Source of the DNA: Candidatus Cloacimonadota bacterium
GTDB lineage: Bacteria > Cloacimonadota > Cloacimonadia > Cloacimonadales > TCS61
Direction: 5' to 3'
Assembly (NCBI GenBank): GCA_018645365.1
Contig: JABGOP010000019.1
Location: forward strand, 1-33,377
Length of the DNA: 33,377 nt
The notes under the pieces were generated by a model. That model had not been told where the DNA came from and made no database searches. It was given only the letters and a program-made list of their open reading frames with translations. The translations under genes were made by a program, and so were the position numbers. Below, one piece after another: positions 1,936-31,912 of this stretch. How positions within the stretch are numbered: position 1 is the stretch's first letter; each line of letters opens with the position of its first letter.

Positions 1936-4900
1936 ATGGAAAATAAGAAAGTTGGTTCAGTACTTGTTGTTGGATCTGGGATTGCTGGAATTCAATCTTC
2001 ATTAGATTTGGCAAATTCAGGTTTTAAAGTTCATCTCTTGGAAAGACAATCTGCTATTGGTGGCGTGATGTCGCAACTCGACAAAACTTTCCCTACAAAT
2101 GATTGTGCGATGTGCGTGATTTCCCCAAAATTAGTGGAATGTGGCAGACATTTGAACATCAATCTTATCAACGATGCAGAACTTATATCAGTCGATGGCG
2201 ATGCTGGAAATTTCAAAGTAAAAATCCACCAAAATCCACGCTTTGTTGATTTGGATAAGTGTACTGGTTGTGGTGAATGTGCTGCGGTATGCCCTGTCCA
2301 AATGGTAAGCATTTTTGATGAAAATTTAGTGGAAAAAACTGCAATTTATAAATTATATGCACAGGCTTCTCCAAACGCCTTTGCAATGGATAAAAAAGAG
2401 ACTGCACCTTGCCAAATTGCGTGTCCATCTGGCATTCATGTGCAAGGTTATGTAGCACTTGTCCGCGAAGGAAAATATAAAGAAGCATATGATTTAATCC
2501 GCAGAAATAATCCATTTGTATCTGTTTGTGGACGCGTTTGTCATCATCCGTGTGAGACAGATTGTCGTCGTGGTGAATATGACGACCCAATTAATATTCG
2601 CAATATTAAACGCTTTATCGCAGATTATGTTCATGCAAATCATGATGAAATGGATAAAAAAGATGAAGTTGTCCCAAAAAATAAAGAAAAAATTGCCGTA
2701 ATTGGTGCTGGTCCAGCAGGACTTTCTTGTGCATTTTATTTAGCAAAAAAAGGATATCAAGTAACAATTTTTGAAAAAGAAGATAAAGCAGGCGGAATGA
2801 TGCGTTTGGGAATTCCAGCTTACCGCCTTTCCCGCGATGAATTAGATTGGGAAATTGAGCAAATATTAAAAGAAGGAATTGAACTCAAAACTAACTCTCC
2901 AATTAACTCCAAAGATGACATAGAAAAACTTAGAAAGATGGGCTTCAAAGCATTTTATGTAAGCGTAGGTTCACATTTGAGCAAAATGTTAAACATCGCT
3001 GGTGAAAATTTAGAAGGCGTTTACGGAGGCATTGAATTTTTGAGAAATGCTGAAAATGGAAAAGCAAATCTCGGTAAAAAAGTAGCCGTTATTGGTGGTG
3101 GAAACACTGCAATAGATTGTGCTAGAACCGCCATCCGAACAGGTGCAGATGTCACTCTCGTTTACCGTAGAACTGGCAGAGAAATGCCAGCAGAAAGACA
3201 CGAAATTATTGCTGCCAAAGAAGAAGGCATAAAATTCAAATTCCTCACAAATCCTGTGGAAAATATTGGCGAAAATGGTAAATTATCAAAAATCAAATTC
3301 GATGTAATGGAATTGGGCAAACCTGATAGTAGCGGTAGAAGAAGACCGCAACCAACTGGCGAACAATTCACCGAAGAATTCGATAATATGCTCGTTGCTG
3401 TTTCCCAAAATTCTGACCTTACTCTGTTAGATGGTTCCGATGTAGAAACAACAAAATGGGACACTGTCAAAGTTGACCCAATTACTTATGCAACAAACGT
3501 TACAGACGTTTTTGCTGGTGGCGATGTGGTGCTTGGACCTGCCTCTGTTGTGGAAGCAGTAGGGCAAGCATTCGAAGCTGTAATTTCAATTGATAGATAT
3601 TTGCGTGGCGAAGATATGAGTAAAGATAGAGCGGCAAGAAATGACCTGCCAGCTCGTGAATATCAAACTTATGTACCTCAAGAGAATAGAGTACCAATTC
3701 ATCATATAGACCCAAAAGAGAGAATAAAAAATTATGATGAAACAGAGATTGGCTACAGCGAAGAAGAAGTTAGAAAAGAAGCAAATCGTTGCCTCGATTG
3801 TGGAATTTGCTCACAATGTATGCAATGCGAAATTGTTTGTGAAGCTGGTGCAATTGTACACGATATGGTGGGCGAGGAATTGGAACTTGATATTGGCTCT
3901 GTTATCGTGGCGAGTGGTGCCGAAAAATATGATCCAACCGAAATGCACCAATATGGTTTTGGCAAATATGAAAATGTGCTAACAAGTATTCAATTTGAAC
4001 GAATCTTGGCTGCCTCAGGTCCATTCGAAGGACATTTACAAAGGTTGAGTGATGGCAAAATTCCAAGAAAAATAGCGTGGATTCAGTGTGTTGGCTCACG
4101 AACCGAAGATGCCCATATGCCATATTGTTCGTCTGTTTGCTGTATGTATGCTATGAAGGAAGCGATGATTGCCAAAGAACACGAAAGCATTGTGGAACCA
4201 ACAATCTTCTATATGGATATTCGTGCCCACGGTAAAGATTTTGAAAAATATTATGAAAAAGCAAAAGATTCTGGCGTAGCTTTCAAACGAGGAAGAGTTG
4301 GGAAAATCCGTGAAATTGCGGATTCAAAAAACCTAGAATTATACTATGTGCAAGATGATGGCAAGACGCAAATCGAAGAATTTGACATGGTCGTTCTTTC
4401 GGTTGGTTTGCATCAGCCGAATGATATTGCAGATTTAGCAAATAAACTCGATGTGCGTTTGAACGATTTTAATTTTATTGATAATGTCGGGCTTTCTCCT
4501 ATTCAGACTACACGTCCGGGAATTTTTGTTTGTGGACCTGCTGTTTCTCCAAAAGATATTCCAGAAACTGTGATGCAAGCAAGTGGTGCAGTTGCTGGAG
4601 CCGCCGAAGTTTTGGCGGAAGTTCGCGGTACCGAAATCGAAGAGAAGATTTTCCCAGAAGAGATTAATGTAGATGGCAAAAAACCACGCATTGGCGTCTT
4701 TGTTTGCCATTGTGGGATAAATATTAGTAGCGTGGTAGATGTGAAAGATGTGGTGAAATTTGCTAAAACCCTGCCAAATGTAGTTTATGTGGAGGATAAT
4801 CTTTTCACTTGTTCGCAAGATACGCAACAAAAGATGAAAGAAATTATCGATGAATATAAGCTAAATCGAGTGGTCGTTTCTTCTTGTTCACCAAGTACAC

Positions 4901-6387
4901 ACGAGGCACTTTTCCAAGAAACTTTGAAAGAAGCAGGTTTGAACCCGTACCTTTTCGATATGGCGAACATTAGAAATCAGTGTAGTTGGGTGCATAAAGA
5001 TGACCACCCAGCCGCTACCGAAAAAGCAAAAGTGCTTACCAAAATTGCGATTGCCAAAGCACGCTTGTTGGAGCCACTTCAAACAATTGCTCTGCCAGTT
5101 ACTCAAAAAGCACTCGTCATTGGTGGCGGACTTGCTGGAATGACAAATGCACTTTCCATTGCTAAACAAGGTTTTGAGGTTGCAATTATTGAACGAAACG
5201 ATCGCTTAGGTGGAAACTTACACCGTTTAGACGAATCAGTGGAAGGGCAAAAAATTGGCGATTACATTATCGAACTGCGTGATGAAATTACAGATAATAA
5301 GATGATTACTGTTTTTACGGATTCGGAAGCAAAAGAGATAGATGGTTACATCGGAAATTATAAAACAACTATTTTCAATAAAGTTCATCATAAAGAAACC
5401 GTTTATGAACACGGGGTTATCATTATCACAACTGGTGCTGTGGAATCTAAACCAACAGAATATCTTTATGGAAAATGTAACAACGTCCTGACCCATCTTG
5501 AATTTGAAACAGAATTTGAAAGTAAAAAAGCTGATTATAAAAAGCTGAAAAACATCGTGATGATTCAGTGCGTCGGTTCTCGTGATGATGAACACCCTTA
5601 CTGTTCGCGAGTTTGTTGCACGCAATCGGTAAAAAATGCAATTCGTTTGAAAGAATTGAATCCTAAAACAAATGTTTATGTGCTTTATCGCGATATGAGA
5701 ACTTACGGTTTCAATGAAAAATATTATCAAAAAGCACGCGAATTGGGAGTTGTCTTCATTCGCTATGAAAAAGATAATAAACCAATGGTGGAAATTGACG
5801 CAAAACGCATGATTTTGGACGATAATGGTCTCAAGGTAACTGTGAAAGACCACATCTTGAACCAAGATATGATGCTCTATCCCGATAAATTAATTTTGGC
5901 TTCGGCAATGGTTCCGCAAGCTGATGCCGATAAAATTTCACAAATGTTGAAACTTCCCCTTAATGAAGATAAATTCTTTATGGAAGCACATGTGAAATTG
6001 CGTCCCGTAGATTTTTCTGCAGAAGGAATTTTCTTGGCAGGTTTGGCACATTCACCAAAAGGAATTGAAGAGAGTATTTCGCAAGCAAAAGCAGCTGCTG
6101 AACGCGCTTGCTCGATTATTTGTTCAAATGAATACATTGCTGAAGCAAATATTTCACAAGTAGATGTGGATATGTGTGCCGGTTGCGGAATGTGTGTGTC
6201 TGTCTGCCCGTATGGTGCACCAGAACTTATTTGGCTAAACGGAAAAGAGTATGCCTATGTGAATTCTGCCCTTTGTAAAGGTTGTGGAAGTTGTGCTTCT
6301 GTCTGTCCATCTGGAGCGATGCAACAGCTGGGCTTTAAGGAAAATCAAACTTTAGCAATGCTGAATGAAGCGTTAGAGATTTGGTAA
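1936..6387 (+). CDS. HdrA / NADPH-oxidoreductase / HdrA fusion flavo-iron-sulphur protein
   Basis: A 1483-residue cytoplasmic electron-transfer protein. In order: HdrA-type FAD fold (GSGIAG, residues 13-18; HdrA Cys-rich region PTNDCAMC); a [4Fe-4S] motif (Cys109/112/115/119); a GltD/NfnB-like insert with its own Cys-rich N-terminal part, FAD motif GAGPAG (257-262) and NADPH motif GGGNTA (387-392); a Cys-rich cluster (619-635); the rest of the first HdrA with CVGSR; a second HdrA copy from about residue 915 (CHCG 924-927, FAD motif GGGLAG 1063-1068, CVGSR); and two C-terminal ferredoxin motifs (Cys1414-1424 and 1447-1457). HdrA proteins bifurcate electrons between ferredoxin, NAD(P)H and disulphide or similar acceptors; the NADPH module suggests NADPH as one partner. 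No hdrB or hdrC is adjacent. The AAGGAG site 8 bases upstream supports this start. Confidence 0.88.
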   Translation: MENKKVGSVLVVGSGIAGIQSSLDLANSGFKVHLLERQSAIGGVMSQLDKTFPTNDCAMCVISPKLVECGRHLNINLINDAELISVDGDAGNFKVKIHQNPRFVDLDKCTGCGECAAVCPVQMVSIFDENLVEKTAIYKLYAQASPNAFAMDKKETAPCQIACPSGIHVQGYVALVREGKYKEAYDLIRRNNPFVSVCGRVCHHPCETDCRRGEYDDPINIRNIKRFIADYVHANHDEMDKKDEVVPKNKEKIAVIGAGPAGLSCAFYLAKKGYQVTIFEKEDKAGGMMRLGIPAYRLSRDELDWEIEQILKEGIELKTNSPINSKDDIEKLRKMGFKAFYVSVGSHLSKMLNIAGENLEGVYGGIEFLRNAENGKANLGKKVAVIGGGNTAIDCARTAIRTGADVTLVYRRTGREMPAERHEIIAAKEEGIKFKFLTNPVENIGENGKLSKIKFDVMELGKPDSSGRRRPQPTGEQFTEEFDNMLVAVSQNSDLTLLDGSDVETTKWDTVKVDPITYATNVTDVFAGGDVVLGPASVVEAVGQAFEAVISIDRYLRGEDMSKDRAARNDLPAREYQTYVPQENRVPIHHIDPKERIKNYDETEIGYSEEEVRKEANRCLDCGICSQCMQCEIVCEAGAIVHDMVGEELELDIGSVIVASGAEKYDPTEMHQYGFGKYENVLTSIQFERILAASGPFEGHLQRLSDGKIPRKIAWIQCVGSRTEDAHMPYCSSVCCMYAMKEAMIAKEHESIVEPTIFYMDIRAHGKDFEKYYEKAKDSGVAFKRGRVGKIREIADSKNLELYYVQDDGKTQIEEFDMVVLSVGLHQPNDIADLANKLDVRLNDFNFIDNVGLSPIQTTRPGIFVCGPAVSPKDIPETVMQASGAVAGAAEVLAEVRGTEIEEKIFPEEINVDGKKPRIGVFVCHCGINISSVVDVKDVVKFAKTLPNVVYVEDNLFTCSQDTQQKMKEIIDEYKLNRVVVSSCSPSTHEALFQETLKEAGLNPYLFDMANIRNQCSWVHKDDHPAATEKAKVLTKIAIAKARLLEPLQTIALPVTQKALVIGGGLAGMTNALSIAKQGFEVAIIERNDRLGGNLHRLDESVEGQKIGDYIIELRDEITDNKMITVFTDSEAKEIDGYIGNYKTTIFNKVHHKETVYEHGVIIITTGAVESKPTEYLYGKCNNVLTHLEFETEFESKKADYKKLKNIVMIQCVGSRDDEHPYCSRVCCTQSVKNAIRLKELNPKTNVYVLYRDMRTYGFNEKYYQKARELGVVFIRYEKDNKPMVEIDAKRMILDDNGLKVTVKDHILNQDMMLYPDKLILASAMVPQADADKISQMLKLPLNEDKFFMEAHVKLRPVDFSAEGIFLAGLAHSPKGIEESISQAKAAAERACSIICSNEYIAEANISQVDVDMCAGCGMCVSVCPYGAPELIWLNGKEYAYVNSALCKGCGSCASVCPSGAMQQLGFKENQTLAMLNEALEIW

Positions 6388-15613: not shown

Positions 15614-16234
15614 TTATTTTGTTTGTAAATTTTTAATCAAACGAATTTCTACGCGTCTATTTTTCTTCCGATTCTCAGCAGAAGAATTTTCCACTAAAGG
15701 TTTAAATTCACCGTAACCCATAGCTTGCAATTGGTCGGCTATAAACAAATTATTCTGCAGAAAAAATCTGACAACACTGATTGCGCGTGCGGTCGAAAGC
15801 TCCCAATTTGACGCATATTTTTCTGTATTTATCGGCACATTATCGGTATGACCTTCAACTCTTATTTGCCAATCTGAATCAATTTCATCTTTAATATTTG
15901 CTGCAACTTTCATCAACGAATGGAGTGATTTTGTTTTCAGTTTTGCTTTCCCAGATGCAAATAAAATTTCCGATGAAATTTGAATCACTATTTCGTTACC
16001 AGAAACTGAATCTACTTGGGCAATTTCCGTCATTATCTTTTGCGAATTTTCAGATGGAGTAGTTACATCTGTTAATGAAGAATAGATAAAAAACATCACG
16101 AAAAAGATAAGTAGAAGCGTCATCAAATCTGCGTATGGAATCATCACATCGAGCAGATTTTCTTGTTCATAAATCTCGCTTTGCAAATCATCTAATTTAT
16201 TTTGATAAAAACTTTTTATGATCTTTTTAAGCAA
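15614..16234 (-). CDS. MotB-like stator protein with OmpA peptidoglycan-binding domain
   Basis: A 206-residue inner-membrane protein with one transmembrane helix (about residues 32-52). The sequence PYADLMTLLLIFFVMFF places Asp36 at the position of the proton- or sodium-carrying Asp of MotB. The C-terminal OmpA-like domain (about 90-200; VEGHTDNVP and the end ENRKKNRRVEIRL) would anchor it to peptidoglycan. The MotA-like gene ends 9 bases upstream. MotB-like proteins also serve Zorya, Exb/Tol-like and gliding motors, but the MotA and FliG-domain neighbours favour a flagellar-type stator. Confidence 0.88.
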   Translation of the reverse strand: MLKKIIKSFYQNKLDDLQSEIYEQENLLDVMIPYADLMTLLLIFFVMFFIYSSLTDVTTPSENSQKIMTEIAQVDSVSGNEIVIQISSEILFASGKAKLKTKSLHSLMKVAANIKDEIDSDWQIRVEGHTDNVPINTEKYASNWELSTARAISVVRFFLQNNLFIADQLQAMGYGEFKPLVENSSAENRKKNRRVEIRLIKNLQTK

Positions 16235-16243
16235 AATAACATC

Positions 16244-16978
16244 CTATAAATAACTTTGTAGATTTTCTTTGATGATTTGAGAATTTTCACCACGCTGAAT
16301 GGCAAGAATAGCGTCTATTATCATATCTTTCACTTGGTTATCCAACTGGTTTTTATCTCTAATTTTACCAGAAATTGGTTTAAAAATAAGTGCTGAGAGT
16401 ATCAATCCATAGAAAGTTGTAACGAGTGCTAACCCCATAGCTGCCGGAATTGAAGATGGGTCATTAACTTTGTGAAGCATCGAGATAAGCCCAATCACCG
16501 TCCCCATCATTCCAAACATCGGTGCAAAACTTCCGGCAATCTTAAAAACTCTTTCTGCCACTCGATTTTTTCCAAAAATCATCTGTTTTTCACGCGTCAA
16601 TATCGCAGAAAGTTGTTCCGGTTCCATTCCGTCTGCCAAAAATCTCAAACCTTTTTTCAAAAATTTAATTTTCTGAACCGAATGTAAATTCTGCAAATTG
16701 GAAAATCCAGCAATGCGCGCCTCTCTACAAACAGCTACCATAATATCAATCATCTTCTTTTTTGAATAATATTTTTCGGTAAATATTTTGAAAAAAGCCG
16801 AGATTGAACTCTTCAAAGCCCAAGGTGAAAAGTAGATAATTACAGCCGAAATCGTGCCTCCAAATGTAATGCCAAGTGCCGACCAACTAAGAAAATATTC
16901 AGTACCTTGCTGATAGAAAATCGTTAAACCAATAATCGTTAAACCAAAAATAAAACCAAAAATTGTTGTAAGTTTCAT
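16244..16978 (-). CDS. MotA-like stator protein
   Basis: A 244-residue protein with two N-terminal membrane helices (about residues 3-22 and 33-50), a cytoplasmic charged loop and two C-terminal helices (about 145-165 and 178-200), the MotA/PomA plan. The loop carries the Arg/Glu-rich stretch LRFLADGMEPEQLSAILTRE, which in MotA meets the FliG torque helix; GSFAPMFGMMGTVIGL and LALVTTFYGLILSALIFKPI are the usual channel helices. It sits between a FliG-fusion gene (10 bases away) and a MotB-like gene (9 bases away), so rotor and stator parts are co-expressed. Confidence 0.88.
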   Translation of the reverse strand: MKLTTIFGFIFGLTIIGLTIFYQQGTEYFLSWSALGITFGGTISAVIIYFSPWALKSSISAFFKIFTEKYYSKKKMIDIMVAVCREARIAGFSNLQNLHSVQKIKFLKKGLRFLADGMEPEQLSAILTREKQMIFGKNRVAERVFKIAGSFAPMFGMMGTVIGLISMLHKVNDPSSIPAAMGLALVTTFYGLILSALIFKPISGKIRDKNQLDNQVKDMIIDAILAIQRGENSQIIKENLQSYL

Positions 16979-16988
16979 AAATTTATCC

Positions 16989-18323
16989 TCATCTCAATAT
17001 TTTGCGAATTTCAGTTAACATCAAATTAATCGAATGTTCTCTTGATGCATCATCTAAAACACCAATTACATCTACATCTTCTTGAATAATTGCTCTCGTT
17101 CGACTCGTCATATTCTGCAAAAATACTTCTCGAGCCGATTTATCTACACATGCCAAAAACGAGACCAAAAAATTACGATCAACAATATCGATAATCTGAT
17201 TTATTTTTTCTTTTTCCAACGTTAAAACATCATCTAACAAGAAAATTTTTGCACGAATTTCAGTTGCAATTTTACTGTTTGTTTTTTGTACTTTTGCCAA
17301 CATCTCTTTTGCTTTCGCAGATGGTAACTCATTTATAATATTAACAATTGCATCTTTTCCGCCGAAAGAAAGTTGCTTATTTTCCATAAATTCTAGATAT
17401 TTTTGGAATAATTTATTTCTCAATTTCGCTACTTCATCTTTTGTTTTTTGAGAAACAGAAGGCATTTCGTCCAGAATAAATGACGAATCATCTTTAAATT
17501 CCACAAAAAATTTATTAGTGAAATCATTCGATAAAATAGTCAAAATAAAAGCAATTTCTTTTTTATCAATTAATTGTACAAAATCTTGTGTTGACAACGA
17601 TTCCAAGAAATTGAACGAGCTATCTTCTTCTTTATTTGACTCCACAATTTTGATAGGAAGTGGGCCTTTTTCGAAAAATTTTTCCGATTTTTTTTCAGCT
17701 GTTTGGGTTTGCAAATTCCCCATAATGCGAATCGCTTTATCAAATCCACTAATGTTGATTGCACGCATCGATTCTGATAATTGCTTTATTTTTGAATTAA
17801 ACATAAATATGAAGATGAGTGCTAGCAATAAAAATATCGCAACTATTGCGTAAAGTGGTTGCCAACTAATTGAATCAAAATTTTCATTTTTCATCGACAG
17901 CGTCTTTTTGATGGTCAAATCAGTAGCATCAATGCGAGCCCAATTTGTCACATTTTCTTTGATAAATTCGATTTTTTTAGTCTCCATTAATTTATCAACA
18001 TAAACCACAATTTTTTTGGCAGTAATTTGTGTAGGAAGTGTTGGCTTACCATCAATTTTGTTCGGCAAAATACCTTTCGATTTTGCCACTGGTAAACCAG
18101 GTAAACTCTCATTCCTATTCAGTTCCATTCCAAATGGAATAAGCCCCTCTGACGGATACAGCAAAGTCAAATTGACATCAACAATCGTTTTGCCAACGAT
18201 TGGAAAAAGCATGTTTTCAATTCTTTCTGCCAACCCTTTTTCCATTTGCAATTCGGTAACTGTTTCTGTACTTTGCCCCAAAATGACTATCGCAAACATT
18301 AAAACCACAAATAATTTTTTCAT
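16989..18323 (-). CDS. FliF-like periplasmic domain fused to FliG (rotor-ring fusion)
   Basis: A 444-residue protein with a signal sequence (residues 1-17), a periplasmic part (about 20-150) whose EKGLAERIENMLFPIVGK resembles the third ring-building domain of FliF, one transmembrane helix (155-175), and a cytoplasmic part (about 230-444) ending as a FliG C-terminal torque domain (LTLEKEKINQIIDIVDRNFL, QNMTSRTRAIIQED, SINLMLTEIRKIL). In flagella FliF and FliG are separate proteins that touch at the membrane; here they are one chain, and the N-terminal membrane helix and first two ring domains of FliF are absent. Downstream motA and motB homologues supply a stator. FliG-C identity is clear by motif; the FliF assignment is weaker. 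Confidence 0.78.
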   Translation of the reverse strand: MKKLFVVLMFAIVILGQSTETVTELQMEKGLAERIENMLFPIVGKTIVDVNLTLLYPSEGLIPFGMELNRNESLPGLPVAKSKGILPNKIDGKPTLPTQITAKKIVVYVDKLMETKKIEFIKENVTNWARIDATDLTIKKTLSMKNENFDSISWQPLYAIVAIFLLLALIFIFMFNSKIKQLSESMRAINISGFDKAIRIMGNLQTQTAEKKSEKFFEKGPLPIKIVESNKEEDSSFNFLESLSTQDFVQLIDKKEIAFILTILSNDFTNKFFVEFKDDSSFILDEMPSVSQKTKDEVAKLRNKLFQKYLEFMENKQLSFGGKDAIVNIINELPSAKAKEMLAKVQKTNSKIATEIRAKIFLLDDVLTLEKEKINQIIDIVDRNFLVSFLACVDKSAREVFLQNMTSRTRAIIQEDVDVIGVLDDASREHSINLMLTEIRKILR

Positions 18324-18346
18324 TCTTCATTTTCCTTCTTTTACTT

Positions 18347-19768
18347 TTAAAATTTCGGTGCTAAATCTTCCACACCATTTTTTATGCCATCTAAAAGTTG
18401 TTTTAATTCCACATTATTTGAATCCACCTTATAACCTTTTTTCCAGTGATACAAAGCTTCTTCTCTGTCACCCAGTTTCCAATATATCGAACCCAATCGC
18501 AAATATGAAAGCGATAATTTCGGAGCAATTTGAATTGCTTTTTCGCACTCTTCAATTGCTTTTTCAAAATTTTCAGCGAAATAATATTCCAAAGATTTTA
18601 TTAGGTGAGCAGATGCCGCATTAAACACTTCAATTTCACCACTTGTTTGATTTGAAATTGCTTCTGCTAATTTCTTTTTGAGTAATTCCTCATCAAGCAC
18701 TTTTTCGATAATTGTGATTGTATCCATTTTTACAATTTCTCTGTAAATTGTGTCTAATTTAACTTTTTCGATAACGACTGTATCAATTTGCACATTTACA
18801 TCTAGACCAAATTCAGATGGAAAGAATTTTATAAAATCTTCTTTTGATTCAGTTCTGCCAAAATTAATTTTTAGTCCAAAAAAGTGGTCTCCAAATTCAG
18901 ATTCTAAACCGTTACCAATTTCAAAATCACCCTTTGTATATTCAAAATTTAGCGGATGTTGAAAAGCATAATCAAGCGAAACATCAAAATATGTCATTCG
19001 ATTAATTTCAGCAGAAAAAAAAGCCGGCCAATATTGGGAAAAAATATCTACTCCGAAACCAAAAGTGTAATAATTGTTGTTCATTCCAGCCCTAATAAAT
19101 AAATTTTTCATGGCAAGTTCTGTACCAATTGCAGCTAAAATTTCGGTTTCACTAAAATTACTACCACGCTGAACATCTGCCGAAATAACCAAATTCTTCA
19201 AATTCAAAGAAGAACCAAAACCATAAATTCGCGAAAATTTATCCTCTGAATATGTGCCTAAATCAGCTTGTAATAAATTTTTGGCAACTATACCAAATTT
19301 AGCAAAAGGTAATTTGTAACCAATGCCAAAATCACAATCGTATGCAGATGAACTACTTATTTCTGTATCAAAAGAAAAATAATTTGCACTCAAACCAACA
19401 AATAAATTATGGGGTAACTCTTTACCAAAATGAAATCCAAATTTGCTTTCTCCTGCTACATCTCCCCCAAAATAATTTGCATTCAACACAAATGTGCCAG
19501 CTTTTTTAGTTGGCATTGCGAAATACATCACATTTTGAGACCAATTATCATTATCCAACTGGATGGTAAATTTTCTGGAATCTGTGAGCAATTCAAACTT
19601 GTGTAAATTTCCTAAAAATGCGGGATTCCAAACAGCTGTTGAAGCATCATTTGAAGAGCTTATGCCTGTTCTCCCCATCGCCGAATTACGCACGCCACCA
19701 TCAATAAAATCGTAAGCTGAACAGATAATTGGGATAACTAAAATTAGAACTAAAAGTTTATTTTTCAT
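18347..19768 (-). CDS. PorV/UPF0164-like outer-membrane barrel with C-terminal TPRs
   Basis: A 473-residue protein with a signal peptide (cleaved near residue 18), then GGVRNSAMGRTGISSSNDASTA with VWNPAFLGNL, the characteristic start of PorV/PorQ-type barrels. Barrel strands run to about residue 310. A linker rich in DTVVIEKV/DTIYREIV repeats follows, then two tetratricopeptide repeats (about 385-460), which would sit in the periplasm. PorV-like proteins act in type IX secretion and surface attachment in the Bacteroidetes; here the neighbours are a large surface protein (4 bases upstream) and a motor-like set (23 bases downstream). A bridge from surface protein to inner-membrane rotor is an inference. 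Confidence 0.72.
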   Translation of the reverse strand: MKNKLLVLILVIPIICSAYDFIDGGVRNSAMGRTGISSSNDASTAVWNPAFLGNLHKFELLTDSRKFTIQLDNDNWSQNVMYFAMPTKKAGTFVLNANYFGGDVAGESKFGFHFGKELPHNLFVGLSANYFSFDTEISSSSAYDCDFGIGYKLPFAKFGIVAKNLLQADLGTYSEDKFSRIYGFGSSLNLKNLVISADVQRGSNFSETEILAAIGTELAMKNLFIRAGMNNNYYTFGFGVDIFSQYWPAFFSAEINRMTYFDVSLDYAFQHPLNFEYTKGDFEIGNGLESEFGDHFFGLKINFGRTESKEDFIKFFPSEFGLDVNVQIDTVVIEKVKLDTIYREIVKMDTITIIEKVLDEELLKKKLAEAISNQTSGEIEVFNAASAHLIKSLEYYFAENFEKAIEECEKAIQIAPKLSLSYLRLGSIYWKLGDREEALYHWKKGYKVDSNNVELKQLLDGIKNGVEDLAPKF

Positions 19769-19772
19769 ATTT

Positions 19773-22700
19773 CTACCTTACAATTATTATGCTTCCTTGA
19801 TATGTTTTTTCGCCAATTTTCACTTGATAAATGTAAAATCCACCTGGAATTTGTCGCCCAAATTTATCAGTTGTATCCCATCTGGCAACATTATTATATT
19901 CGTTAAACGCAGGTTCGATATCTATTGTGTTAATAATTTTTCCACGCCGATTTAAGATTTCACAATGTTCAATTACTTCGTTATTGGCCGTATAAATAAA
20001 TATTTCACATTCATTATTACTTACCGTATGTGGTTCCACTTGAACTTTTTTTGCAGGATATTCCACATCTGACATCGGGTTTACGATAACCTCAACTGTA
20101 TCTAAAACGACTGTTCTATCAAAATTGTCATTCAAAGAAAAAATAATGTTCTCCACTCCATTCCAGTTTGCAGTTGCTGTAAAAGTAACCACAAACTCGT
20201 TAATTTCGACATTGATTTCTTCATTTCCTAAAACTTCTAATGTTAATATATCTGTATCAACATCATCAATATAATTCGCAAAATTTCCAACATACCAGCT
20301 ATCTTCATCGAAAGTAAAATTATCTGGTAAATTCATTATTGGTGCGTCGTTTACAGGATTTATGGTAATCATAATGATTGCTAAATTAGAATAATTTTCA
20401 CCATCAAATGCACGATAAGTAAATTCATCTTCTCCGTAAAAATCGGTGTTTGGCGTATAAATCCCATCTGCGTAAATCCCATTAGAGGGCAGACCTACAA
20501 CTTCAATAGTCAAAGCATCACCATCGATATCATTACCCAACAAAATAACTTCAAGGAAAATGTCTTCATCTGTTGTAAGTAACAAATCATCAACAGTTGG
20601 AGCATCATTTGTAGGACTTACGATTACCTCTATCTCATCAGTGGCAATTGTTCTATTTTGATTATCATTCACTGTAAAAGTTAGAGTTTCCATTCCATTC
20701 CAATTTGCAGTTGCTGTAAAAGTAACCACAAATTCGTTGATTTCGACATTAATCTCTTCATTTTCTGAAACTTCTAGTGTTAATATATCTGTATCAACAT
20801 CATCAATATAATTCGCAAAATTTCCAACATACCAACTGTCTTCATCAAAAGTCAAATTATCTGGTAAATTAATTATTGGTGCGTCATTTACGGAATTTAC
20901 AGCAATCGTAATTGTTTGATTAACCGTAAATTCTCCATCTGAAAGTGAAAATGTAATCTCTTCCGTTCCAAACCAATCTGCTGTTGGTTCAAAATTTACA
21001 TCATTAAATAAAACTGCGACATCAATATTTTCTGAACCCACCGCAGATAAAATCAAATTGTCGGTTTCATTATAAGTTTGGCTCATAAATTGGGTAAAAT
21101 TAGTGGGTAGAATTGAATCTTCGTCAAATATAAAAGTTCCAGTAATATTCAAAATTGGTGGGTCATTGATTGGATTTACAGTCACTTCAACTTCATCAGT
21201 CACATCGTTTCCACCTTGATTATCGTTGACCGCAAAAGTTAAAATTTCACTTCCATTCCAATTTTGCGAAGCAGAAAATGTGATTTCATAACCATTAATT
21301 TGCACAAAAATATTTGAATTTCCACTGACAGTTATAGTCAAGTCATCGTTATCCAAATCATCTACAAAGTAGGAAAAATTTTGTTGGAACGATGTGTCTT
21401 CTTCAAACGTAAAAATTTCGGGAATATCTATTTCTGGCTCGTGATTCATTACGTTCAAAACATTAACAATGATTGTATCCGGTTCGGAATTGTATTCACC
21501 ATCATTCACCGTAAGAATAAAATTGTACTCAATATCTTCACTTACAAACGGTGCTATAAAATATGACTCAGCAAATGAAGAGCCGAACAACTCAATTTCG
21601 GGTGGTGCAATCCATTCATAAGTAAGAACATCATTATCTATATCATTTGAAAGAGAACCGTTCAAATATACCGTTTCACCTTCATCAACAGATTGATTTT
21701 CGCCAGCATCCGCAATTGGTGGTTGATTCACATTTAAAACAGTAATGGTCACATTACTCATATCGTTGTACTCAGCATCAGAAACGATTAAATTGAAAAT
21801 AAAATCTTCATTTTCTACCACCGCTGGTGCGATAAATGTAGGATTTATCGCTGTTTCATCTGAAAGAATAATACCTTCTGGCATTAACCACAAATAGCTT
21901 ATTTCATCACCATCTGGGTCAAAAGAAGCAGAAGCATCTAACTGCACTTCTGCAAGTTCATCCACCATTTGGTCAAACCCAGCGTCCGCAATAGGCTCAT
22001 CATTTCGAGGAATAATAATAATGTTAACCGTCGCATAATCGGAAAAAGATTCGCCGTCAAAAGCACGATAGGTCAATACATCAATTCCATTAAAGTTTGT
22101 CGTTGGAATATACGAACCATTTACATAAACACCATTTTCGGGATAATCTGAAATATGATAAGTCAAAATTTCCAAGCCTTGATCATCATTTGAATGTTGG
22201 GCAAATGGAACAACAATTGCGACATCTTCTTCTGTTTGAATTAAAAAGTCTTCGACCGTTGGTGGTGTATTGGTTATATCGCATTCAAATGATGAAGTTT
22301 CCATTAATGTGTTGGGTGGAATAGCCAAATCTTCAGCTGAAATTTCAAGGTTGATTGTCGCACCAAAATTAAAATCATTCGGTGGATTAATGGTAATTCC
22401 ATAGCCATAATCTATCGAAAATGATGAAAAAACACCAACATCTAAATAATTGTAAACTGAACCATTTACATTAACTTCAATCGTTGATAAATTAACGCCT
22501 GCACCACCAGAATCTTTAACATCAAAATATATCGATGAATTCACCAAAACACCCGTTTCACCGTTTGCTGGTTCCAGACTCTGTACAAAAGGCGATGAAT
22601 CATCTTCCACACATTTGAACCAATATGTTACATTTAATTCATTTTGCAAAATATCCATTGCACGCACATTCACAAAAATTGAATCTCCATATCTGAAATT

Positions 22701-22988
22701 CACATTGGGGTCAATTTGAATTTCATAAAAATTGTCTGTAATCTGATTTACACCCAAATTATCGTAAATGACCGCATAGTGCGTTATATCTTCGTTTGCA
22801 TTTTCAGTTATCGTGACCAAAACAGAATCGATCAAAATACCATCTTCATCGTGAAGGTCAAATTCAATATTTGTATTTACAGCAATTTCTGTTGCAAGAG
22901 AATCTGGGCTTAAATTTTCGATGTAAGGTAAATCTGCAAATAACAAAATAGATAAAAACAGCAAAATAATAACTAATGTTTTTTTCAT
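19773..22988 (-). CDS. Large secreted cadherin/PKD-repeat surface protein with FlgD-like C-terminal Ig domain
   Basis: A 1071-residue exported protein: signal peptide (residues 1-18), Ig-like N-terminal region (about 20-230), a cadherin-like module (about 245-335), two PKD domains (about 335-520; PIADAG ... DASASFDPDGDEISYLW and PIADAGENQSVDEG), several cadherin-like repeats (about 520-985; NDPPI or NDAPI joints, FDEDS starts, Asp-rich calcium-type loops), and a C-terminal FlgD-like Ig / sorting-type domain ending GGFYIYQVKIGEKTYQGSII. The last feature is typical of surface proteins exported by type IX-like routes. Two modules (about residues 697-766 and 875-944) are near copies. It heads the motor cluster, so an adhesin role is likely. 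Confidence 0.8.
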   Translation of the reverse strand: MKKTLVIILLFLSILLFADLPYIENLSPDSLATEIAVNTNIEFDLHDEDGILIDSVLVTITENANEDITHYAVIYDNLGVNQITDNFYEIQIDPNVNFRYGDSIFVNVRAMDILQNELNVTYWFKCVEDDSSPFVQSLEPANGETGVLVNSSIYFDVKDSGGAGVNLSTIEVNVNGSVYNYLDVGVFSSFSIDYGYGITINPPNDFNFGATINLEISAEDLAIPPNTLMETSSFECDITNTPPTVEDFLIQTEEDVAIVVPFAQHSNDDQGLEILTYHISDYPENGVYVNGSYIPTTNFNGIDVLTYRAFDGESFSDYATVNIIIIPRNDEPIADAGFDQMVDELAEVQLDASASFDPDGDEISYLWLMPEGIILSDETAINPTFIAPAVVENEDFIFNLIVSDAEYNDMSNVTITVLNVNQPPIADAGENQSVDEGETVYLNGSLSNDIDNDVLTYEWIAPPEIELFGSSFAESYFIAPFVSEDIEYNFILTVNDGEYNSEPDTIIVNVLNVMNHEPEIDIPEIFTFEEDTSFQQNFSYFVDDLDNDDLTITVSGNSNIFVQINGYEITFSASQNWNGSEILTFAVNDNQGGNDVTDEVEVTVNPINDPPILNITGTFIFDEDSILPTNFTQFMSQTYNETDNLILSAVGSENIDVAVLFNDVNFEPTADWFGTEEITFSLSDGEFTVNQTITIAVNSVNDAPIINLPDNLTFDEDSWYVGNFANYIDDVDTDILTLEVSENEEINVEINEFVVTFTATANWNGMETLTFTVNDNQNRTIATDEIEVIVSPTNDAPTVDDLLLTTDEDIFLEVILLGNDIDGDALTIEVVGLPSNGIYADGIYTPNTDFYGEDEFTYRAFDGENYSNLAIIMITINPVNDAPIMNLPDNFTFDEDSWYVGNFANYIDDVDTDILTLEVLGNEEINVEINEFVVTFTATANWNGVENIIFSLNDNFDRTVVLDTVEVIVNPMSDVEYPAKKVQVEPHTVSNNECEIFIYTANNEVIEHCEILNRRGKIINTIDIEPAFNEYNNVARWDTTDKFGRQIPGGFYIYQVKIGEKTYQGSIIIVR
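20157..20902 (-). repeat. Near-identical cadherin-like modules 537 bp apart
   Basis: Bases 20157-20365 and 20694-20902 agree at roughly nine in ten positions by eye, at an offset of exactly 537 bp (179 codons). They encode the module FDEDSWYVGNFANYIDDVDT and its continuation. The other cadherin-like repeats of the protein are much less alike, so this pair is a recent duplication or is kept alike by recombination. Confidence 0.85.
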
Positions 22989-28768: not shown

Positions 28769-31700
28769 ATGAAAAATTATCGATTAGGAATTGACCTCGG
28801 TGCAACCTCACTTGGATGGAGTTTAATAGAGCTTGATAACAACAACGAACCTACAAAATTAGAAAAAGTTGGCGTACGCATTTTTTTAGATGGTAGAGAT
28901 GCAAAATCCAAAGAGCCATTGAATGTTACTCGTAGAGATGCTCGTGGTATCCGCCGTAATAGAGACAGATATTTACAAAGAAGAACTTATTTGATTAATT
29001 ACTTAATTGAAATCGGTTTAATGCCAAAAGACAAAACAAAACGAAAGAAACTCGAACACATTGACCCTTACCTCCTAAGAACAAAAGGATTAGATGATAA
29101 ATTATCTCTTTTTGAATTCGGTAGAACTATTTTTCATTTGAACCAAAGACGAGGTTTCAAAAGTAACAGAAAATTAGATGCAAAAGACAATGATACTTCT
29201 ATAATGAAAACTGCAATAAAAGAACTTAAAGAGGAATTAGAAAAAACCAATTCGAGAACGCTGGGAGAATATCTTTTCAATTTGAACAAAGACCTACCGC
29301 AAAGTGAAGATAAAAACCGAAAACCTGTTAGAGTGAAAAAAAGTTCGAAATCTTACAATCTCTACCCAAATCGACAAATGTATTTAGATGAATTTGAGCT
29401 ACTTTGGCAGAAACAAGCAAAATACTATCCTGAATTAACTGATGACAAAAAAGAACAACTCATTAACATTATTTTCTACCAACGCGATTTGAAACCACAA
29501 GAAAAGGGAAGTTGCCAATTTGAGGAAGGAGAAAAAAGATGCTCATTTGCTTTTGCTACCGCTCAAAAATTTCGCATACTTCAAGAGATAAATAATCTTT
29601 CGCTATTAGATTTTAATAAAAATAGCCATTTACTAACCGAAGCACAAAGAGCAATAATTCTAGAAGCACTTCTAATTCAAAAATCTGCAACTTTCAAATC
29701 TTTACGCAAAAAATTAGGTAAAGAGTACGCCAGAGATTATGTTTTTAATCTTGAAAGCGAAAAGAGAAAAGATTTAAAAGGTGATGACACTTCTTATACT
29801 ATGCGAAAAAATGATTACTTTGGCGATAAATGGGATGAATTAAGTAATGATGAAAAAGATGAAATTATTTCAAAAATTCTAAATGATGAAAATGATAAAG
29901 AGATTGAAGCAACACTCATAACTTGGCTCTGTGAAAATTATAATCTCCCCAAAGAAAATGCTCAAAATATTGCAAACGCTTCTCTATCAAAAAAAATAAG
30001 TAATTTAAGTAGAAAGGCTATGACAAATATTCTGCCATTTTTAAATGATGGTTTCAACTACTACGAATCCTGCCAAAAAGCAGGTTACGAAAATACTGAT
30101 GAAGCACCAGAAGAACCAAAATACTTTAAAGGAGATCTTCCATATTACGGGGAACTTTTTGAGAAAGATGCTCTTTTTGGAAATAAAGAAAACTATGACT
30201 CTGAAAAAGAACCCGAAAAATATTATGGTAAAATTGGCAATGTTACCGTTCACATTGCTCTCAATCAATTACGAAAACTGGTGAACCAACTTACCAAAAC
30301 TTACGGTGCACCAAAGCAAATAGTTTTAGAACTGGCTCGTGAACTAAAACTTGGAAAAACCAAAGTTGATGAAATCGAAAAAAATCAAGCAAAAAACAGA
30401 AAAATCAACAAAGCAATTGGCAAAAAATTAGAGGAAATAAGTGTTGAAAATAATTATGAAAACAGAACAAAATACAAACTTTGGGAAGAGTTAAGCAAAA
30501 ATGATACAGAAAGATGTTGCCCTTTTTCTGGAATCATTATCCCCATTCATAAATTATTCACACATGAATTCCAAATTGAACATATTTTGCCAAAATCAAG
30601 AACATTTAACGATAGAATGGTAAATAAAACAATTGCCCACCGTAAAGCAAATCAAGATAAAGGTGAACGAAGCCCATTTGAAGCTTTTGGGCATAATCCA
30701 CCTGATTACAACTACAATCATATTTTGGCACGCGCAAAAAATCTACCTTCCAATAAAGAAAAAAGGTTCTTCCCCGATGCAATGCAATATTACCAAGATG
30801 AAGGTGAAATTTTAAGCCGCATGCTTACAGATACACAATATATGAGCAGAGTTGCCAGAAAATATATGGCTTTTGTTTGCGGAAAAAATAATGTGTGGTC
30901 TATCAATGGACAACTTACCGCCAAGCTGAGATCTAAATGGGGGTTGAATAATTTACTCTCCGACGACAGCACCAAAAACCGTGCTGACCACCGCCATCAT
31001 GCAGTTGATGCTTTTGTAGTTGCCTGCACTTCGCGTTCTACAATGCAAAAAGTAGCAAGAGCAATTGGCAACAGCCGTGATAAATTTATCGATACAATGC
31101 CACCGCCTTTTGATAATTTTAAACATAATGAGATGAAACAAATTTTAGATGATACAGTAATTTCCTACAAACCAGACCACGGAAATGCCAAAAAAGCAAT
31201 CTCCGAACATAAAACTGTGGGACAACTCCACAAAGATACCGCTTACGGTTTGGTGAGCATTGACGAAAAAAAAGGAAAAATAACTCTCTCTGTTAGAAAA
31301 GAATTAGTAAGCTTAGAGAGCATAAAAAAAATTAATGAAATTGCCGACCCAAGAATACGAGCAACCTTATTACAACTTACAGATGGAGAAAATGACAAGA
31401 AAAAAATAGTTAGAATTCTCTCTGAATATTCTGAACGAACTGGTATAAAAAGAGTGAAAATACACATTGAAAAATCTTTGGAAACAGTAGTTCGCATTGA
31501 AGATAAACTGGGCAATTACAAATACTACGAGTTACGAAACAACTATTGTGCAGATATTTATATCCCCAATAAAGGCAAAAAAGCGGGAAAGTGGCAAATT
31601 GAAATTATCCCAATGTTCTATGCCCACCAGCCGAACTCTACCCCAAAATGGCAAAAAGAAAACCCAACTGCAAAAAAGAAAATGAGACTCTTTATAAACG

Positions 31701-31912
31701 ACACAGTTGCTTACGAAGAAAACGGCAAAACAGAAATTAGACGGGTAAAAAAGATGACATTTGACGGTAGATTATTTTTTGTTAATCATAGAATTGCAAA
31801 ATCTGATAAAGACCCAAATGCAACATCGGTAAAACAGTTACAAGAAAAAGATGGTCGCAAAGTAGGGGTTGACATACTTGGTAGAGTAAGCGACCCTAAA
31901 AACACAAAATGA
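28769..31912 (+). CDS. cas9: Type II-C CRISPR endonuclease Cas9
   Basis: At 1047 residues it has the compact size of II-C Cas9. RuvC-I is LGIDLGATSLGW with Asp9; an Arg-rich bridge helix follows (TRRDARGIRRNRDRYLQRR). RuvC-II is IVLELARE with Glu521, HNH is IEHILPKS with His605 and Asn628, and RuvC-III is HHAVDAFVVA with His744 and Asp747. All catalytic residues are present, so the nuclease should be active. The motif CQFEEGEKRCSFA in the recognition lobe is typical of II-C proteins. The C-terminal part after about residue 850 would read the PAM, which cannot be predicted. A strong AAGGAAAAGGAG ribosome site precedes the start, and the stop overlaps cas1. Confidence 0.97.
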   Translation: MKNYRLGIDLGATSLGWSLIELDNNNEPTKLEKVGVRIFLDGRDAKSKEPLNVTRRDARGIRRNRDRYLQRRTYLINYLIEIGLMPKDKTKRKKLEHIDPYLLRTKGLDDKLSLFEFGRTIFHLNQRRGFKSNRKLDAKDNDTSIMKTAIKELKEELEKTNSRTLGEYLFNLNKDLPQSEDKNRKPVRVKKSSKSYNLYPNRQMYLDEFELLWQKQAKYYPELTDDKKEQLINIIFYQRDLKPQEKGSCQFEEGEKRCSFAFATAQKFRILQEINNLSLLDFNKNSHLLTEAQRAIILEALLIQKSATFKSLRKKLGKEYARDYVFNLESEKRKDLKGDDTSYTMRKNDYFGDKWDELSNDEKDEIISKILNDENDKEIEATLITWLCENYNLPKENAQNIANASLSKKISNLSRKAMTNILPFLNDGFNYYESCQKAGYENTDEAPEEPKYFKGDLPYYGELFEKDALFGNKENYDSEKEPEKYYGKIGNVTVHIALNQLRKLVNQLTKTYGAPKQIVLELARELKLGKTKVDEIEKNQAKNRKINKAIGKKLEEISVENNYENRTKYKLWEELSKNDTERCCPFSGIIIPIHKLFTHEFQIEHILPKSRTFNDRMVNKTIAHRKANQDKGERSPFEAFGHNPPDYNYNHILARAKNLPSNKEKRFFPDAMQYYQDEGEILSRMLTDTQYMSRVARKYMAFVCGKNNVWSINGQLTAKLRSKWGLNNLLSDDSTKNRADHRHHAVDAFVVACTSRSTMQKVARAIGNSRDKFIDTMPPPFDNFKHNEMKQILDDTVISYKPDHGNAKKAISEHKTVGQLHKDTAYGLVSIDEKKGKITLSVRKELVSLESIKKINEIADPRIRATLLQLTDGENDKKKIVRILSEYSERTGIKRVKIHIEKSLETVVRIEDKLGNYKYYELRNNYCADIYIPNKGKKAGKWQIEIIPMFYAHQPNSTPKWQKENPTAKKKMRLFINDTVAYEENGKTEIRRVKKMTFDGRLFFVNHRIAKSDKDPNATSVKQLQEKDGRKVGVDILGRVSDPKNTK

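Follow-up and report, generated by a model that had tools for sequence, protein, structure and literature searches.

A candidate non-flagellar rotary machine in the cell envelope of Cloacimonadota, predicted from a conserved adhesin, barrel, rotor and stator gene cluster

What would a flagellar rotor and stator be doing in a genome without FlhA, FliM or FliN, encoded beside a large surface adhesin and its presumed outer-membrane (OM) carrier? The question is raised by five genes of a Candidatus Cloacimonadota bacterium (GCA_018645365.1) on contig JABGOP010000019.1, the whole of which (33,377 nucleotides) was analysed and is referred to as the window. Its genome, G000, is 1.79 Mb in size and 96.9% complete. 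The five genes are co-directional on the minus strand (22988-15614), separated by intergenic gaps of 4, 23, 10, and 9 bp, respectively, and encode the following products:

19773..22988, minus strand: adhesin of 1071 aa with a signal peptide, Big_5/PKD/cadherin repeats, and an apparently cluster-specific C-terminal domain (CTD) at about residues 976-1071, GGFYIYQVKIGEKTYQGSIIIVR (Pfam/NCBIfam; C-terminal conservation)
18347..19768, minus strand: PorV-like OM beta-barrel with C-terminal tetratricopeptide repeats (TPR), 473 aa (Pfam TPR, NCBIfam, AlphaFold, Foldseek)
16989..18323, minus strand: FliF/FliG fusion (rotor), 444 aa, with a ring-building part at about residues 20-145, a transmembrane helix at about 155-180, and the FliG middle and C-terminal domains (FliG-MC) at about 238-443
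16244..16978, minus strand: MotA, a PomA-like stator subunit, 244 aa (Pfam, PDB profile, residue conservation)
15614..16234, minus strand: MotB stator subunit, 206 aa, with Asp36, a plug, and an OmpA-type peptidoglycan-binding domain (Pfam)

An earlier note on this DNA had described five closely spaced genes of just these kinds, and their positions and domains were borne out by the open reading frames (ORFs), Pfam, PDB profile searches, and Foldseek. We consider it fairly probable that the cluster encodes a rotary machine of the cell envelope that is not a flagellum, is based on a flagellar rotor-stator pair, and moves or tensions surface proteins. Support is good for the components and for contact between rotor and stator; gliding, export, and movement of the adhesin are inferences.

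The FliF/FliG fusion and MotAB very probably form a rotor-stator pair, as judged from domain and residue matches. The FliG half of the fusion was recognized by Pfam (FliG_C, 5e-13), matched FliG-MC (1lkv) across the full domain length in the PDB profile search (1.3e-39), and gave flagellar FliG as its best Foldseek matches. Arg408 of the fusion is invariant and aligns with R281 of FliG, and the acidic pair E415/D416 aligns with D288/D289, the numbers being those that we take to be the Escherichia coli FliG positions. A basic residue is present at the position of MotA R90 in all aligned sequences. The contact pairs R90/D288-D289 and E98/R281 have roles in the rotor-stator interface (PMC12505986).

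The N-terminal half of the fusion is predicted to start with a signal-like stretch and to continue with a periplasmic fold of the order alpha-beta-beta-alpha-beta, its first and second strands separated by an insert, followed by a transmembrane helix; in the predicted structure, this order of elements is that of the ring-building fold. Pfam did not recognize the FliF-like part of the window fusion. Foldseek returned the ring-building domains of FliF, PrgK, and SpoIIIAG at E values of about 0.02-0.1, which are weak alone. In a single profile-profile comparison, this half matched a FliF_C protein of Fidelibacterota (probability 96%, E 7e-9), and its identification as FliF is based on this match to proteins bearing the Pfam domain YscJ_FliF_C. 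A disulfide bond between the barrel and the rotor, like that between SprF and GldK, was considered and rejected: Cys408 of the barrel is invariant, but the periplasmic part of the window rotor has no cysteine.

The stator subunits are of the flagellar (PomA) type. MotA was identified by Pfam (MotA_ExbB, 1e-21), its nearest solved structure is PomA (2e-55, PDB profile search), and its functional channel prolines are conserved in the aligned relatives. T160 and T188 are invariant and correspond to T158 and T186 of PomA, both of which have a role in Na+ coordination. MotB matched OmpA (7e-18) and MotB_plug (3e-8), and its ion-binding Asp36, within the motif PYADLMTLL, is conserved with one exception (G046). 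The MotB proteins of two genomes of family f13 (G116 and G117; L088 9579-10001 and L089 1338-1877) have no OmpA match; the end of the L088 protein appears LysM-like by eye, and Pfam found no LysM there. A gene for a protein of 299-301 aa lies 3' of motB at L035 (7691-8590), where Pfam identified it as an MscS-type mechanosensitive channel, and ORFs of similar size are present in L036, L037, L039, L040, and L086.

The barrel protein matched TPR_2 (1e-9) and, weakly, PorV in Pfam, and PorV_fam in NCBIfam at 9e-9, which is under the cut-off. In its AlphaFold model, a barrel of about 14 strands precedes the TPR helices, and the top Foldseek match of the model (3.5e-9) was 8gl6_F, the PorV of the type IX secretion system (T9SS) complexed with the CTD of a substrate; 6h3i_F, likewise a T9SS PorV chain, and FadL-type barrels were also matched. 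The TPR domain is presumably periplasmic, and the barrel is presumed to serve both as the carrier of the adhesin and as its coupler to the rotor. The adhesin (Big_9/Cadherin_4/PKD in Pfam, 3e-49) varies greatly in its repeats among relatives, ranging from 772 to >2500 aa and containing cadherin, PKD, Big_5, or FG-GAP units. The final 100 residues are conserved among the cluster adhesins: a profile of this end scored 87-145 bits in them (some having been used to build the profile) and no more than 40 bits in the remaining surface proteins encoded at the loci examined. The profile scores thus mark the CTD as specific to the cluster and distinct from other CTD-like ends.

Is the machine simply part of a flagellum? 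Gene absences were tested family by family across the sampled relatives. Neither FlhA (PF00771) nor FliM/FliN (PF01052) was matched in G000 or in any member of its family (f1), with positive controls for FlhA working, and an ordinary flagellum is rejected because of their absence. FlhA and FliM/FliN are confined to the same 10 of 59 sampled relatives; an ordinary FliG is present in nine of these, and the fusion solely in the remaining genome, G046. Both are absent in 16 of the 17 sampled Cloacimonadota that carry the fusion. No rod, hook, or filament genes (FlgE and FliC) were present among the window ORFs examined, with no individual search made for fliC, flgE, or fliP. In a tree of FliG-MC sequences, the 39 flagellar FliGs from these phyla group in a single clade (100/100), the unfused forms described below form a separate clade (100/100), and the Cloacimonadota fusions form a third together with L110 (100/99). 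Branches are long, which makes the branching order of the non-flagellar lineages uncertain. The tree places the non-flagellar FliGs outside the flagellar clade, and they have not branched recently from the flagellar FliGs of these phyla.

The order adhesin, PorV-TPR barrel, fusion, MotA, and MotB is identical in 15 genomes and permuted in three more; together these genomes span several families and have differing flanks. In the window, genes for an RNA methylase, MutL, and a MiaA-type protein lie 3' of the cluster and an XdhC-like gene lies 5'. Plain shared synteny accounts for the order in part within the family, where XdhC/MobA-like neighbours recur in some relatives, yet the block stays together where the flanks differ. 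The cluster is more than a chance association, since the block recurs in many genomes, some with different flanking genes. The ratios of nonsynonymous to synonymous substitution (dN/dS) of the cluster genes in close pairs are 0.03-0.14, i.e. the genes are under purifying selection. Neither of the two findings that would have refuted the earlier note was made: FlhA and FliM/FliN are lacking in the genome and in the sampled members of its family, and the cluster is conserved. Fusions of a second paralogous kind, with neither an adhesin nor a barrel, were found at L045 and L049, and also at L046, L050, and L051; where the contig permits, genes for MotA, MotB, and a 376-aa TPR protein come next.

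An unfused form extends the same set of parts to a second phylum. FliG-like proteins of about 310 aa are present in many Fidelibacterota (Marinimicrobia) genomes, and nine complete split loci encode, in this order, a PorV-TPR protein, MotA, MotB, a FliF_C protein, and a FliG with N, M, and C domains. The FliF_C protein matched YscJ_FliF_C (Pfam, 1.6e-10), lacks the N-terminal YscJ domain, and terminates in a motif resembling a FliG-binding tail, the comparison being with what we take to be the Salmonella FliF tail; phmmer support for the motif is partial. Against the PDB, phmmer gave only a weak match to the FliF M-ring, and the assignment is based on Pfam and the profile comparison. FlhA was above the cut-off in 3 of the 28 Fidelibacterota genomes searched and absent in 8 of the 10 whose split locus was inspected. 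At L150, L151, and L152, also in Fidelibacterota, another FliF/FliG-like fusion adjoins two TPR proteins, with MotAB not adjacent.

These parts suggest how the machine could work. The fusion would assemble into a small ring in the membrane, with rod, hook, and export apparatus all absent. Ion flow, probably of Na+ because both threonines of the PomA sodium site are kept, would turn the MotA pentamer, which would push FliG as in flagella. The periplasmic face of the ring would contact the TPR domain of the barrel, directly or via a further partner, and we think it likely that the rotor is coupled to the barrel in some such way. The adhesin would leave through SprA and be kept on its cognate barrel by its CTD, as SprB is on SprF, and the motor would move or tension the barrel-adhesin unit in the OM, resulting in gliding or force-bearing attachment. 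Adhesin movement or gliding as the outcome has, in our judgement, about an even chance.

Four known systems come closest to this scheme. Like the flagellar rotor-stator of the PomAB type, the cluster encodes a FliF ring-building domain, a FliG-MC with torque residues, a PomA-type MotA, and a MotB with the ion-binding Asp and a peptidoglycan-binding domain. Unlike in a flagellum, FlhA, FliM, and FliN are missing from the genome, rotor and stator are partnered by an adhesin and a PorV-TPR barrel, and what is left of FliF, a single ring-building domain with a single transmembrane helix, is fused to FliG. Myxococcus Agl-Glt likewise has a MotAB-related motor, which is thought to power surface adhesion complexes, and to our knowledge AglRQS includes no FliF/FliG rotor. 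AglRQS falls in the ExbBD/TolQR-like group, unlike the MotAB of the cluster (PMC12505986). Engineered fusions of FliF and FliG from Salmonella and Vibrio assemble rings (PMC6079021, PMC11481574), which shows that such a fusion is mechanically sound; these laboratory constructs contain full-length flagellar FliF, unlike the reduced FliF of the cluster. Bacteroidota gliding (GldLM, the GldKNJ track, SprF, and SprB) shares with the cluster and its genome a large CTD adhesin encoded beside its own barrel, SprA, and an ion-driven inner-membrane stator. It differs in that the stator of the cluster is MotAB with a FliF/FliG rotor, GldM was not found, and the barrel is PorV-like with TPRs, not PorP/SprF. 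In Flavobacterium, type B CTD adhesins are carried by cognate barrels that are often encoded by neighbouring genes, and SprF carries SprB along the gliding track (PMC12618676, PMC12635249).

The T9SS components bear on the best-surviving alternative, in which the motor would replace GldLM in energizing T9SS-like OM secretion via SprA, the adhesin being one cargo and no surface movement taking place. SprA (PF14349) was found in G000 (6e-21), and GldM (TIGR03517) was not detected there or in its Cloacimonadota relatives by a model that may miss distant forms; GldL was not searched. A GldM-powered T9SS was therefore set aside, with the same reservation about the sensitivity of the model. The presence of SprA and the lack of a detected GldM make export via SprA plausible, and a PorV-like barrel and a CTD substrate lie within the cluster itself. 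However, SprA is present in 37 of 37 good genomes, whereas the fusion occurs in less than half of the sampled genera; the motor therefore does not appear to be needed for SprA generally. The CTD is also limited to the cluster adhesin and is not found in other CTD-like proteins. We regard this explanation as unlikely. The earlier note had proposed that a stripped flagellar rotor drives surface movement or adhesin transport: a rotor driving an adhesin or surface movement fits the sequence evidence and is extended by the unfused Fidelibacterota cluster, so that this reading is largely supported, whereas transport of the adhesin by the motor is less likely than its movement, since SprA is present with or without the motor.

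A motor whose rotor works on an exporter of the Wza/Wzc type and so drives the release of slime polysaccharide is suggested by divergent lineages in which the fusion adjoins Poly_export in G107 (L090), a Wzz/AAA protein in G035 (L047), a Wza-like protein in G126 (L110), and a Wzc-like protein in G125 (L114), a metagenome-assembled genome (MAG) labelled Gemmatimonadetes that encodes an ordinary FliG and FlhA separately. In the window and the main family, the constant partners are instead the adhesin and the PorV-TPR barrel, and slime export seems quite improbable for the cluster. The MscS-type channel gene after motB in several relatives would agree with a sensor of force or of the surface, in which stator and ring perform no sustained work and instead anchor the adhesin under tension or serve it as a mechanosensor; a passive anchor would not need the ion-binding Asp, the channel threonines, and the torque residues, all of which are kept, and we consider this function very unlikely. 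Decayed remnants of a lost flagellum surviving by chance are among the options that PMC12199754 gives for the rotor genes of species that are not motile, and the fused and shortened FliF/FliG and the flagella of related lineages speak for them. They are rejected because of the dN/dS values and are highly improbable also in view of the retention of the block with non-flagellar partners across families and phyla, the position of the FliG lineage outside the flagellar clade, and the occurrence of the unfused form in G157 and G373, which also have an export gate.

Several points weigh against the rotary machine proposed here. The equivalents of FliG K264 and R297 (E. coli numbers again as we take them to be) and MotA E98 are not conserved, and the ring-building assignment is weak when the comparisons are taken singly. 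In the MotB of G046 (L032 216-797), Asn replaces the ion-binding Asp; this stator may be inactive, or its contig may be foreign. At some loci, i.e. in G107 and at the second paralogues, the rotor has no adjoining adhesin and barrel, and some Cloacimonadota have SprA and no such motor. Rotation in place would by itself yield no net translation, and no track protein was identified, GldK, GldN, and GldJ not having been searched for. The carriers are uncultured MAGs.

Elsewhere in the window, a Cas9 of 1047 aa is encoded at 28769-31912 (NCBIfam cas_Csn1, 1e-185), followed by ORFs of 292 and 119 aa that are Cas1/Cas2-like by size alone, and an HdrA/GltD-like multidomain oxidoreductase of 1483 aa is encoded at 1936-6387.

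No prior description of the cluster was found in the open-licence papers searched; bioRxiv and subscription papers were outside this scope, so an account may exist elsewhere. Non-flagellar machines of Cloacimonadota based on FliF/FliG are mentioned neither in a study of MotAB diversity from 2025 nor in a review of gliding from 2026. The chances seem evenly balanced that the cluster represents an ion-driven machine of a new class, for gliding or for moving adhesins, whose minimal ring of FliF/FliG, turned by MotAB, drives adhesin-carrying barrels. Such a class would be common to Cloacimonadota, Fidelibacterota, and a Gemmatimonadota-labelled lineage, ancient enough to fall outside the flagellar FliG clade, and hence informative on flagellar origins. 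What rotor genes do in non-motile species has been stated as an open question (PMC12199754), and the cluster offers a concrete candidate: a rotor kept with a stator and OM partners in at least two phyla, under selection. If the proposal is correct, the flagellar rotor-stator works outside flagella, phyla whose gliding motors are undescribed would gain a motor, and a minimal FliF/FliG ring would become available for structural study and for ideas on the origin of the flagellum.

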